DNA of 64,000 bases from Saliniradius amylolyticus (GTDB taxonomy: Bacteria > Pseudomonadota > Gammaproteobacteria > Enterobacterales > Alteromonadaceae), in NCBI RefSeq assembly GCF_003143555.1, contig NZ_CP029347.1:2046001-2110000 (forward strand). Reading direction: 5' to 3'. Position 1 is the stretch's first letter. Each line of letters starts with the position of its first letter. The position numbers were made by a program, and so were the translations under genes. The notes below the pieces were generated by a model that was given only the letters and a program-made list of their open reading frames with translations, had not been told where the DNA came from and made no database searches. Shown piece by piece: positions 8,189 to 12,293 of the stretch.

Positions 8189-9706
8189 ATGAACACAGAA
8201 ATAATGACTAAAGTCCTATCCTTATTCGTTTTTGCGCTGTTATTTTCCCCACTCAGTCACGCTACCACTTATGACTGGCTGATAAAGGGAGCGACAATCA
8301 TCGATGGCTCCGGCAAGCCCGCCTACACGGCAGACGTGGGCATTAAGAAAAAGCGCATTGCCTTTATTGGTTCCGCAGACGAGAAGGTGACGGCAACAAA
8401 CACCGTCAATGCCGACGGGCGGGTGTTAACGCCAGGCTTTATCGACCTGCACTCCCACGGCTCTGCTGTCAAACAGGGCGCTTTCACCAACTTCCTCGCC
8501 ATGGGCGTGACCACCATCAGCCTGGGCCAGGATGGCTATAGCCCGGTGACGGAGGGTTTCCAAGACTGGCATCAGCAGTGGCAAGCGCAAGGTTCAGCCG
8601 TCAATATCGCCCTGTTCGTTGGCCACGGCTCCTTGCGCCGAAGCGTTGGGCTTAACGACGCCACTCCGGCTAGCCAAGCGCAAATTCTAAAGATGCAACA
8701 AACCCTGGATAAGGCCCTGGCAGACACCTTTGGCCTGTCCACGGGACTGGAATATGTGCCAGGCCTTTACGCCTCCAAGAACGAGCTGCTTACCTTGGCA
8801 AGGGTGGTGAGACAGCACGACCGGCTGATCAGCAGCCATATGCGTGATGAAAACGACGGTAAACTACTGTCCTCCATCGACGAATTGGCCCACCAGGGGC
8901 AAGCTGCCAAAGTGCATATTTCTCATTTAAAGTCGGTCTACGGTAAGGGCGCCGAACGCGGTAAGGAGATACTGGCGCATATCGAAAGCTGGCGTCACAA
9001 AGGCGTTCAAATCACCGCCGATGTATACCCTTATACTGCGAGCTATACCGGCATTGCCATTGTGTTTCCGAAATGGGCCAAGACCCAGCAGCAACTTGAG
9101 GCCTTGTCCGAAACACAGAAAGAGCAACTGGCCAGCTATCTGCGCCAGCGCGTGGCTAAGCGCAATGGGCCACAGGCCACCTTATTCGGCAGCGGTCCTT
9201 ATCAGGGGATGACACTGGCAGAGGCGGCCCTGCAAGCGGGCAAACCCTTTGAACAACTGCTTATCGAGGATATTGGCCCGGAGGGCGCCAGCGCGGCCTA
9301 TTTTATTATGGACGCCGAGTTGCAGGAGACCTTAATTCAAGGGCCCCAGGTGGCGCTCAGCTCTGACGGCAGTCCCACCATGCATCACCCAAGAGGCTAT
9401 GGCAGTTTTGCCAGGCTGATACAGGATTATGTGATAAAGAAAAAACTTTTAACCCTGCCACAAGCGGTGCACAAAGCCACCGGCCTACCCGCTAAGATAT
9501 TAGGCATTACCGACAGAGGCAGAATCGCCGTAGGCCAAAACGCCGACCTGTTATTATTTGCGCCCGACAAGGTTAAAGCCACCGCCAGCTACAGTCAGCC
9601 CCATTCTCTGGCACAAGGCTTTGATTACGTCTGGATCAATGGCCAGCTCGCCTGGCAGCAACAGCGGCAGACTGATGTACGTGCAGGCCAATGGTTGAGA
9701 CCTTAG
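8189..9706 (+). CDS. N-acyl-D-amino-acid deacylase family amidohydrolase, exported
   Basis: A 505-residue amidohydrolase-superfamily enzyme with an N-terminal signal peptide (residues about 6-25, ending SPLSHA). The metal-binding HxH is in PGFIDLHSHG (His88, His90). SHMRDEND, VHISHLKSVYGKG and SSDGSPTMHHPRGYGSF are the D-aminoacylase / dihydroorotase-like signatures. The family hydrolyses N-acyl-D-amino acids to D-amino acid plus carboxylate. Export implies action in the periplasm on acylated D-amino acids, possibly peptidoglycan- or lipid-derived. Start could be ATG 8189 or ATG 8204; the second gives a more typical signal peptide (MTKVLSLFVFALLF). A terminator separates it from the transporter gene. 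Confidence 0.87.
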   Translation: MNTEIMTKVLSLFVFALLFSPLSHATTYDWLIKGATIIDGSGKPAYTADVGIKKKRIAFIGSADEKVTATNTVNADGRVLTPGFIDLHSHGSAVKQGAFTNFLAMGVTTISLGQDGYSPVTEGFQDWHQQWQAQGSAVNIALFVGHGSLRRSVGLNDATPASQAQILKMQQTLDKALADTFGLSTGLEYVPGLYASKNELLTLARVVRQHDRLISSHMRDENDGKLLSSIDELAHQGQAAKVHISHLKSVYGKGAERGKEILAHIESWRHKGVQITADVYPYTASYTGIAIVFPKWAKTQQQLEALSETQKEQLASYLRQRVAKRNGPQATLFGSGPYQGMTLAEAALQAGKPFEQLLIEDIGPEGASAAYFIMDAELQETLIQGPQVALSSDGSPTMHHPRGYGSFARLIQDYVIKKKLLTLPQAVHKATGLPAKILGITDRGRIAVGQNADLLLFAPDKVKATASYSQPHSLAQGFDYVWINGQLAWQQQRQTDVRAGQWLRP

Positions 9707-9866
9707 CATTTCGATTAGCAGCACTGAGTACCAGAAAAGTCGATATGGTCCATCATGTATTGCGTTTCAGTGGCATTGTGTACATTACGCTCAGACCAAG
9801 AAATTGATTAATAATTAAACACGTCTATAGTCAGGGGTCGACAATAGTAATCGTCAGGAAGACAGC

Positions 9867-11075
9867 ATGAAACGCATCTATGTCGTACTCACTCTATTTA
9901 GCATAATAATGGCCTTTTCAAGCCATGGAGCGCCCGCTCCGAAGCCCTACGTGGTTAATATGCAAACCTACGATTTTGGCTTCAAAATGCCCAAAAAAAT
10001 CAAGTCAGGCTGGGTCACCTTCGATCTCAAAAACATCGGCCAGAAAACCCATTACGCCCTACTACTGAAAAAGACAGATACCGTTTCACTAGAGGCGTTT
10101 AAAGAAGGTATCGAAAACCTCGACATGCCAGGTTTTGAAGATGTGATCGAACTAGGTGGACCGGGTATGCATTCCTCCGGAAAGCAAAGTCAAACCACCG
10201 TAAAACTGGATCCCGGTCATTATGCAGCGTTTTGCGCAATAAAAACCAAAGATGGGCAAATGCATATCAAGCTGGGCATGCTGGAGTACTTCGAGGTAAC
10301 GGATACGCCTTCCAATGCTCCTGAGCCGAAAGCCGATAATCGCGTCGTTCTCGATGAATACGCGATGACACCTGACAAAGCCTTTATTCAAGGCAAACAG
10401 ACCATTGCCTTTCACCACAAAGGCAGCAGCCTGATGGACGGTCATTTGGTAAAAATAACCGAACAGTCCACCCTGGAGTCAGCGATGACTTTCATGGACA
10501 CTATTGCCGATCCCACCCCTGCGATATTCCTCGGCGGTGTTGAACAATTACCCAAAGGGCAGACCAGTTACTTAACGCTGGACCTGTCCCCCGGGGATTA
10601 CGCCTGGCTCTCTCATGAGTATGGTCGTTGGGGCATGCGCCACAAATTCAGTATTCCAGTCAAAAGCTCTCAGTCCCAAAATGAGAGAGTGGAAATCTTG
10701 CATCTCCACATGGACGACGCTAATTTCGGCCTGCCCGACAAACTTGAACCAGGTCGATACAAATTTGTTCTGGACAACCAGACTAACGAGACGCACAAAC
10801 TGACTGTACGACGAATGAAGAGCGGTAAGACCAAGCAGGATTTTATTGATGACTACCGCTATTGGGCCAAAAAAGTCCAAGCAGGCGAGCCCATCGACAG
10901 AACACCGAGTTTCAAATGGTTTAAAGTTGAGACTGATGTAGTTTCCCCTTATGACAATGATTCTATCACTGTATCCTTAGAGGACGGCTTGTACACATTT
11001 ATCTGTATGTACCAAGGCGAACAAGGCTTTCACTTTATGAATCGCAATAGTTTCGCGGCTATCACCGTTCAGTAG
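9867..11075 (+). CDS. Secreted protein with three tandem cupredoxin-like repeats, function unknown
   Basis: I do not recognise this 402-residue protein as a named gene. It has a signal peptide (residues 1-22, ending SSHGAPA) and three repeats of about 120 residues, near 25-147, 157-265 and 275-402. Each reads as a beta-sandwich with 'kxGxxxFxLxNxxxxxH' then 'LxPGxYxxxC'. Repeat 1 has a full type-1 copper ligand set: His62, Cys123, His133 and Met138 (C-x9-H-x4-M, close to the nitrite-reductase loop). Repeat 3 has His310, Cys380, His389 and Met391. Repeat 2 keeps His193 and lacks the Cys, so it is probably structural. It is likely periplasmic copper-binding or electron-transfer, which is inference. 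It stands alone between a deacylase and convergent anmK, with A/T-rich codons. Confidence 0.72.
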   Translation: MKRIYVVLTLFSIIMAFSSHGAPAPKPYVVNMQTYDFGFKMPKKIKSGWVTFDLKNIGQKTHYALLLKKTDTVSLEAFKEGIENLDMPGFEDVIELGGPGMHSSGKQSQTTVKLDPGHYAAFCAIKTKDGQMHIKLGMLEYFEVTDTPSNAPEPKADNRVVLDEYAMTPDKAFIQGKQTIAFHHKGSSLMDGHLVKITEQSTLESAMTFMDTIADPTPAIFLGGVEQLPKGQTSYLTLDLSPGDYAWLSHEYGRWGMRHKFSIPVKSSQSQNERVEILHLHMDDANFGLPDKLEPGRYKFVLDNQTNETHKLTVRRMKSGKTKQDFIDDYRYWAKKVQAGEPIDRTPSFKWFKVETDVVSPYDNDSITVSLEDGLYTFICMYQGEQGFHFMNRNSFAAITVQ

Positions 11076-11090
11076 TGACAAATTAAAGGC

Positions 11091-12293
11091 TCACCTAGGA
11101 AAGCTGATTTTCCCCATACTGGTATCCGGAATGCCGCGGGCCGGATTACCAAAGCCCGATTGGCCGCCGGCGATACATTCGTTGGCCAGTACAGCAAATA
11201 GCACCGCCTCCTTGGCGTCCGGATCGACACCGACGCTGGCCGTGGAGTCCACCGCCACGTCGGGCAACTGCTCGCGGATGCTGTCCATCAGCAATGTGTT
11301 ATGCCAGCCGCCACCACTGGCGAGCAGTCGGCAGGGTCCATCCAGAGCGCCGCTGTCTTTAATCGCCGCGACGATGGTGTCGGCGGAAAAGCGGTTCAGC
11401 GTCGCCAGTACATCCTGATGACTTATGTTTTCCGTACCTGAGCGCTGCTGAGCCCGGGCCAGATAATCCAGATTAAACAGCTCGGGTCCGGTCGTCTTTG
11501 GCACTGGCTGGCTGAAAAACTCATTCTCTTTCAGTTCAGTCAGCAGCGTAGGATTCACCTTACCGGCCAGGGCCAGCTGACTGTCTTTGTCGTAGGTCAT
11601 GGGGGCAAAATGGCGCTGCACATAGGCATCCATCAGGGTATTGCCCGGACCTACATCGGTGCTGAACACCTTAGCCGGGTCACCATCGGCAGCCAGAAAC
11701 GTAAAGTTGGCGATACCGCCCATATTCAGCAGAATGCGGTTCTCCCCCGGCTGATGGAACATCAGATAATCGCCGTATACGGCCAAAGGCGCACCTTCGC
11801 CGCCAGCGGCGATATGACGCTGACGGAAATCACTGAGCGTGATGATGCCTGTAGTACAAGCGATATGATCGCCATCGCCGATCTGTAAGGTCGCGTTGGG
11901 CTGGTCGGCCAAGCCATGCAGCGAGCGCGGGCAGTGGTAGATGGTCTGGCCGTGACTGGCGATCAGATCCACCTGCTCAGGCCCATAACCCCAGCGTGCC
12001 AGGCAATCCCTGACCATTTCACCATGCAGGCGGCCGATGGCGGCATTAAGCAAAGTCACCTGTTGTAAGTCCACCTCGCGCAACGAAAACACCTCACGCA
12101 CCGCCTGTCGATAAGTTTGGTCATAATCGCAGGTGGTGAACTCCAGCACGTCGACTTCAGTTTCTGTGCCCGCACCACGAATGCGGCAGAGCGCCACATC
12201 CAGCCCATCCAGAGAGGTTCCACTCATCAGGCCAATGACCAGACGGCTTTCGGCTTGTGCCGACTGATACAGGCGTAACAGCTCGGTGTTCAT
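11091..12293 (-). CDS. anmK: Anhydro-N-acetylmuramic acid kinase
   Basis: A 400-residue cytosolic sugar kinase. The N-terminal GLMSGTSLDGLDVALCRI is the diagnostic AnmK ATP-binding segment; HGQTIYH, LNMGGIANFT, DVGPGNTLMDAY and LLASGGGWHNTLL follow in family order. AnmK opens and phosphorylates 1,6-anhydro-N-acetylmuramic acid to MurNAc-6-phosphate in peptidoglycan recycling. It is somewhat longer than the E. coli enzyme (about 370). It is convergent with the cupredoxin-like gene (15 bases between stops). An A/T-rich stretch at 12350-12415 upstream of its ATG probably holds the promoter. The neighbouring exported D-aminoacylase could feed related cell-wall salvage, but this is speculative. 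Confidence 0.95.
   Translation of the reverse strand: MNTELLRLYQSAQAESRLVIGLMSGTSLDGLDVALCRIRGAGTETEVDVLEFTTCDYDQTYRQAVREVFSLREVDLQQVTLLNAAIGRLHGEMVRDCLARWGYGPEQVDLIASHGQTIYHCPRSLHGLADQPNATLQIGDGDHIACTTGIITLSDFRQRHIAAGGEGAPLAVYGDYLMFHQPGENRILLNMGGIANFTFLAADGDPAKVFSTDVGPGNTLMDAYVQRHFAPMTYDKDSQLALAGKVNPTLLTELKENEFFSQPVPKTTGPELFNLDYLARAQQRSGTENISHQDVLATLNRFSADTIVAAIKDSGALDGPCRLLASGGGWHNTLLMDSIREQLPDVAVDSTASVGVDPDAKEAVLFAVLANECIAGGQSGFGNPARGIPDTSMGKISFPR

Follow-up and report, generated by a model that had tools for sequence, protein, structure and literature searches.

A three-domain cupredoxin protein of Saliniradius amylolyticus with two predicted copper sites

The gene and its surroundings

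The window analysed here is a 64,000-nucleotide stretch of the Saliniradius amylolyticus genome (contig NZ_CP029347.1, positions 2,046,001 to 2,110,000). At 9867..11075 on its + strand lies an open frame (P0001) of 402 amino acids plus stop that encodes a three-domain cupredoxin protein. An ORF check found no internal stops, and inspection of the frame and its translation showed that a first-pass annotation, made from the letters alone, had the reading frame, its coordinates and its residue numbers right. Residues 1 to about 22 (9867..9932, +) were judged by eye to be a probable Sec signal peptide; residues 1-20 were modelled by AlphaFold2 at a pLDDT of 53-57, and many relatives begin, again by eye, with a signal or lipoprotein peptide. 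The protein is likely to be exported and periplasmic, as judged from its sequence. It contains exactly two Cys residues, 123 and 380, both at predicted copper positions.

In a Pfam scan, an AbgT-type transporter and an amidohydrolase were identified to the left of the gene. To its right is an opposite-strand gene (11091-12293), which we take to be anmK. No redox gene adjoined the cupredoxin gene among the listed frames and the neighbours scanned against Pfam, and iron-transport families were absent from the four neighbours scanned. A weak promoter-like site was present at 9804-9831, although two such sites were found in all, as against 3.9 expected in shuffled DNA. The gene is present in a single copy in its own genome, where the only other match to a single-sequence search was at chance level (E 0.37).

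Apparently exported amidohydrolases were seen beside a three-domain cupredoxin in two distant genomes (window 8189-9706; locus L081, 242-4748). The window amidohydrolase was 29-35% identical to those beside locus L055 in BLASTP alignments that spanned 62-91 residues and were confined to the N-terminus. Because such alignments are short and remote, and fall within a large superfamily, the amidohydrolase was rejected as a shared partner; judging from the sequences, its adjacency in two genomes is probably due to chance.

Three cupredoxin domains and their copper sites

The cupredoxin fold is a Greek-key beta sandwich of 7-8 strands. The first-pass annotation had proposed three tandem cupredoxin-like repeats and had suggested structure prediction and a fold search as a check. 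Both bear the proposal out. A full-length AlphaFold2 model, computed with 25 aligned sequences as input, had a pLDDT of 88.8 and a pTM of 0.81, and each repeat matched solved cupredoxins. The best matches among solved structures were auracyanin 6kol for residues 27-146 (Z 11.2, 3.2 A over 106 residues), azurin for residues 154-264 (Z 10.1, 3.0 A over 105 residues) and the cupredoxin domain of EfeO 7wgu for residues 274-402 (Z 11.5, 2.1 A over 88). When domain 2 was modelled by itself (pLDDT 94.3), its best match was again auracyanin 6kol (Z 11.9, 2.7 A over 105), and azurins matched as well. In the predicted structure, each of the three domains is thus modelled with a cupredoxin fold.

The domains also resemble one another. 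Profile-profile comparisons, run with no unrelated control profile as a yardstick, gave probabilities of 98.9 for domains 1 and 3 (E 1.9e-17), 98.8 for domains 1 and 2 (E 4.3e-17) and 97.7 for domains 2 and 3 (E 1.9e-12). A family profile of 307 positions, built from repeats 1-2 with the domain-3 columns absent because they were too gapped, gave a second match to the gene, in domain 3 (45.1 bits, E 1.3e-11), through an alignment that extends beyond the end of the gene across two stops. At the DNA level, no repeats were found within the gene beyond one pair of 13 bases, likely a chance occurrence, which suggests that the duplication of the domains is old. A single-sequence search of solved structures returned no match at E<=10, and a domain-3 profile found nothing credible among them (its best hits were racemases, with E 0.19, and 4hcf scored E 0.54).

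Domain 1 (residues 27-148; 9945..10310, +) carries a predicted type-1 copper site composed of His62 (10050..10052, +) and the loop Cys123-X9-His133-X4-Met138 (10233..10280, +). In an alignment of 25 proteins, His62, Cys123 and His133 were each identical in 25/25 and Met138 was present in 23/25, being replaced otherwise by Val or Glu, a degree of conservation far above chance expectation; the Cys-His spacing was X9 in 15 and X8 in 10. The alignment comprises the window protein, four proteins from L011 (an Aliifodinibius metagenome genome) and one from each of 20 other loci. Outside it are four loci with partial genes (L031, L032, L034 and L035), additional paralogues (one cut gene of L011, two of L019), two Kangiella loci (L004, L006) and locus L010. 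The loop was modelled at a pLDDT of 96. A domain-1 profile aligned in register with the Cys, His and Met of the type-1 loop of AniA, with weak E values of 0.0046-0.0048, and its first His aligned with that of the copper-bound Bacillus Cupredoxin_1 protein 4hcf, also weakly (E 0.012). The conserved ligands and the AniA alignment agree with the earlier reading of this loop as close to that of nitrite reductase. On the evidence of its sequence, domain 1 very probably holds an electron-carrying type-1 copper.

Cys-His spacings are reported as 7-8 in green nitrite reductases and 2-4 in blue and red cupredoxins, and AcoP combines a green centre with an unusual six-residue spacing (PMC4059628). Set against these published values, the Cys-X9-His spacing of domain 1 leads us to expect a green or perturbed spectrum, and its centre is probably green or perturbed-blue.

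Domain 2 (residues 154-264; 10326..10658, +) lacks a copper site. The absence of its Cys had been noticed before, and Ser249 occupies that position; in addition, the first His is replaced by Met190, as assigned by the profile alignment of domains 1 and 2. Judging from these substitutions, the site of domain 2 is lost in the window protein. The domain-2 Cys was present in 4/25 aligned proteins. Among the 20 two-domain rows outside L011, two had Cys in both domains (L030 4986-5885 and L033 4773-5732) and may have two copper sites; in L030 the axial residue of domain 1 is Glu.

Domain 3 (residues 270-402; 10674..11072, +), assigned by the EfeO fold match and the profile link, has a putative site formed by His310 (10794..10796, +), Cys380 and His389. 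The first His is present in six of the seven three-domain proteins found, and the same six retain the Cys and the second His, at an overall identity of about 30%. Among these six domains the spacing is Cys-X8-His in the window protein and Cys-X9-His in its relatives. Less certain is the axial ligand. The copper loop Cys380-X8-His389 (11004..11048, +) offers Met391 at His+2 and Asn394 at His+5. Met391, which the first-pass annotation had counted as the fourth ligand, is not conserved across the six three-domain relatives, and the usual His+5 position is Asn394 in the window protein and Glu (3) or Gly (2) in the five relatives with Cys. Since domain 1 of the two-domain relative L022 shows the same spacing as around Met391 (Cys-X8-His-X-Met), this residue is still a candidate, although its role as axial ligand is doubtful on sequence grounds. 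Of the earlier assignment, the His310-Cys380-His389 set is upheld by the sequences and Met391 is uncertain. Domain 3 possibly holds an electron-carrying copper.

In domain arrangement the whole chain was unlike the oxidases and nitrite reductases. Multicopper-oxidase-type proteins and nitrite reductases made up the Foldseek matches listed (50 of 866), but with query TM-scores of 0.16-0.19 and rmsd values of 19-24 A among those listed, which indicates that agreement is confined to the folds of individual domains. For the three-domain nitrite reductase 6tfo, one alignment row covered all three domains, with Z 9.5 and an rmsd of 18.3 A. The whole-chain comparison of the model says little about domain packing, save that it appears unlike that of the oxidases. 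The trinuclear cluster of multicopper oxidases needs four His-X-His motifs; the window protein has one (279-281), which none of its six three-domain relatives shares. Likewise, AniA has a His before the Cys, whereas the window protein has Phe122 before Cys123 and Ile379 before Cys380. In TsNirK this His (His114, before Cys115) binds type-2 copper (PMC6400189). With ligands missing and the domains arranged differently, identity as a multicopper oxidase or a nitrite reductase was rejected. Single domains do match such enzymes: domain 1 with Hyphomicrobium NirK 2dv6 (Z 9.7 over 95 residues) and domain 3 with NirK 8ru9 (Z 9.9 over 98 residues).

Family, distribution and gene neighbourhoods

The first-pass annotation had recognised no named family, and profile searches gave the same picture. 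Cupredoxin_1 (PF13473) scored 27.2 bits against a cut-off of 27, a borderline match with its best stretch within domain 3, and no NCBIfam model matched the window protein at E<=1. The protein shares its fold and first-His motif with Cupredoxin_1 (domain 1 against 4hcf: Z 11.0); the Bacillus anthracis protein 4hcf, which contains copper, is single-domain, and the copper loop of the window protein is longer. At the same threshold the window protein was unmatched by the nitrite reductase model TIGR02376, by the Pfam Cu-oxidase families and by the EfeO model NF041757. Among the 25 aligned proteins, weak matches were given by two to TIGR02376 (best E 2.4e-4), by one to Cu-oxidase_2 (E 0.0022) and by seven to NF041757 (best E 5.7e-6).

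An unnamed two-domain family, homologous to the window protein over domains 1-2 and possessing the same domain-1 ligands without domain 3, occurs in Gemmatimonadota, Balneolota, Bacteroidota, Kangiella, Alteromonas and others. Members with three domains number seven among the genomes searched: the window protein, three in L011 and one each in genomes G731 (locus L055), G1198 and G1155, the last two from the window organism's own family. In a tree of 26 proteins, computed on columns with residues in no fewer than 30% of rows, a filter that removed most of domain 3, the five three-domain members included cluster together (support 96/91), two found later having been left out; L055 is the weakly supported sister of the window protein (92/66).

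Each search of a taxonomic set was run at its own threshold. Matches were found in 1/40 relatives, namely the organism's own genome; in 9/395 genomes of its family, 5/295 of its order and 2/369 of its class, its own genome being counted in each; and in 16/247 genomes of the phylum of L011, including that of L011. When named genomes were scanned, 25 loci were identified, belonging to Gemmatimonadota, Balneolota, Rhodothermota, Bacteroidota, Acidobacteriota and Pseudomonadota. Three Deinococcus and two Gemmatirosa plasmid records also contain partial matches, annotated as 'hypothetical protein' in three cases and not at all in two. The GC content of 9867-11075 is 47.1%, compared with a mean of 54.2 (sd 2.4, minimum 47.9) for 26 window genes, and this low value is a hint, along with the sporadic occurrence of the family, that the gene was gained horizontally. 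In our literature searches we recognised no paper on such a family of tandem cupredoxins. The family appears to be scattered and mostly two-domain, with no name or studied function found for it; its modules are standard cupredoxins, and their arrangement is undescribed in the literature searched.

Gene neighbourhoods were surveyed by a Pfam scan of 30 proteins around the loci, picked from roughly 185 neighbouring frames, and of nine further proteins; one of the 30, L019 3677-4774, belongs to the cupredoxin family under study. Three clusters contain a multicopper oxidase together with several paralogous cupredoxins: L011 1-7446 with five (one cut by the end of the locus), L083 3034-11187, from the same phylum as L011, with five, and L019 3677-8365, like L011 from Balneolota, with three. 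Taken together, the arrays comprise two- and three-domain proteins. The BLAST cluster of the L011 and L019 oxidases included no other locus among the 25, and L081, also from the phylum of L011, lacks a multicopper oxidase. Elsewhere, a PQQ dehydrogenase ends about 40 bases upstream at L026, L012 adjoins a BBE-type FAD oxidase and L014 adjoins a DUF411 protein. Neighbours at other loci include fatty-acid genes, rph/pyrE, a Vgb-like lyase and a sulfatase, and no redox or copper theme was seen among the remaining scanned neighbours.

In Kangiella (L004-L006 and L027, all of this genus), a two-domain cupredoxin adjoins a gene for a propeller protein resembling virginiamycin B lyase. L027 is the same place as L005, so that three genomes are represented, and Pfam confirms the propeller gene for L027 only.

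A conserved operon was rejected: in a BLASTP comparison of the 25 loci and the window (E 1e-6), the only families present in at least three loci were the cupredoxin and one thiolase-like gene, named by eye and found in three. No Cu-oxidase_3 gene was found in the window organism's own genome, and a multicopper oxidase partner in this organism was rejected on that account. Its single PQQ-propeller frame (415 aa) may be unrelated. The only other Cupredoxin_1 protein in the genome (L054 1492-1836; genome positions 3082239-3082541) lacks Cys and adjoins a sensor kinase and a membrane protein, both identified by eye; the latter appears FTR1-like, an assignment by eye that was unconfirmed by any Pfam family, and the neighbourhood is perhaps a ferrous-iron uptake system.

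A proposed electron-transfer role and its alternatives

We favour, with moderate confidence, the reading that the window protein is a periplasmic electron-transfer protein in which two copper centres flank a copper-less domain within one chain. What the analysis shows is the frame, three homologous domains with a predicted cupredoxin fold, the conservation of the ligands and the lack of other recognised copper sites; we infer export, copper binding, redox function, relay and partners. Domain 1 would provide a His2-Cys-Met type-1 copper on a long, nitrite-reductase-like ligand loop. Domain 2, its fold kept and its copper lost, could serve as a spacer or docking module, and domain 3 would provide another copper, bound by His2-Cys, with an axial position that has diverged: Asn394 or Met391 in the window protein and Glu or Gly in its relatives. 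This divergence would give it a redox potential different from that of domain 1. Electrons might be taken up at one centre and passed on from the other, with transfer either straight between the two or through separate partners docking at each domain; such partners would be an oxidoreductase at one end and a cytochrome or a terminal oxidase at the other. A direct relay between the centres of domains 1 and 3 is a guess.

The presence of a multicopper oxidase, PQQ dehydrogenase, FAD oxidase or DUF411 protein beside some relatives supports a carrier; counting against it, neighbours are not conserved and the window gene has no adjacent redox gene. As the protein lacks the trinuclear His residues, has no His beside either Cys and is arranged unlike the enzymes, a carrier fits better than an enzyme. 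Of the two roles first offered for it, electron transfer is better than copper storage, which no result favours.

The alternative that survives best, though we think it unlikely, is that only domain 1 works as a type-1 centre and that the other two domains have decayed or play a structural part, domain 3 binding another metal or none and the extra domains docking a single-copper carrier. Domain 3 is 18-21% identical to the corresponding domain of the three L011 proteins, compared with 38-41% for domain 1. Besides having no conserved axial residue, it has lost its site in one three-domain paralogue (L011 3700-4944), its loop (residues 381-390) was modelled at a mean pLDDT of 68 against 96 in domain 1, and its best structural match, the EfeO cupredoxin domain, belongs to a protein of an iron-uptake system. 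Against such decay stand the first His and Cys kept in 6/7 proteins at the low overall identity noted above, and the restriction of the protein's only two Cys residues to the predicted ligand positions.

Distinctly less probable is a role in delivery or storage of copper (or iron), in which the sites would pass their metal to either a multicopper oxidase or a system for uptake, with no redox turnover. The three clusters in which tandem paralogues accompany a multicopper oxidase, the DUF411 neighbour at L014 and the EfeO and FtrB cupredoxin domains among the structural matches would accord with this role. However, the protein has only two Cys residues and, by eye, no Met- or Cys-rich stretch, buried His2-Cys-Met cupredoxin sites bind copper tightly, and its own genome lacks an oxidase of the Cu-oxidase_3 family. 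That it is a catalytically active relative of the multicopper oxidases or nitrite reductases is barely credible, as these make up the Foldseek matches listed (50 of 866) but agree with it only in the folds of single domains, and both the full set of His-X-His motifs and the His preceding Cys in AniA and TsNirK are missing.

A broader and rather doubtful reading extends the electron-transfer role to the family as a whole. It would comprise an undescribed, cross-phylum class of exported multi-cupredoxin relays, in which a Met-type centre and an axially divergent one (Asn, Glu or Gly) enclose a copper-less cupredoxin. In Balneolota and kin the class would have been amplified into the arrays that surround a multicopper oxidase, and the paralogues there would make up a chain of copper proteins carrying electrons in the periplasm. 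To our knowledge, most multi-domain cupredoxins whose function is known are enzymes that carry additional copper sites. If the electron-transfer reading is true, a chain that joins three cupredoxin domains, has two type-1-like sites and lacks a catalytic one would constitute a natural two-centre electron relay, useful for studying how axial ligands tune potential inside one protein and bearing on fold duplication en route to the oxidases. The unnamed family spans several phyla, and a function for one member would cover many genes.

Among the systems compared, TsNirK offers an instructive parallel. It is a three-domain nitrite reductase with two type-1 coppers in one chain, 14.1 A apart, for which the authors proposed a relay to the type-2 copper; in HdNir, by comparison, the separation is about 24 A and the distal copper is unable to shuttle electrons (PMC6400189). 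TsNirK resembles the window protein in having three cupredoxin domains, type-1 centres in I and III (in our case predicted in I and putative in III), one centre whose axial ligand is other than Met (putatively so in our case) and a proposed relay between the centres (a guess in our case), and differs in being a trimeric enzyme with a catalytic type-2 copper. Its structure (6hbe) also shows another domain arrangement (whole-chain TM 0.19). The auracyanins, which rank high among the structural matches to domains 1 and 2, are themselves one-domain proteins with one copper, and AcoP likewise has a single cupredoxin domain and one copper, compared with three domains in the window protein.
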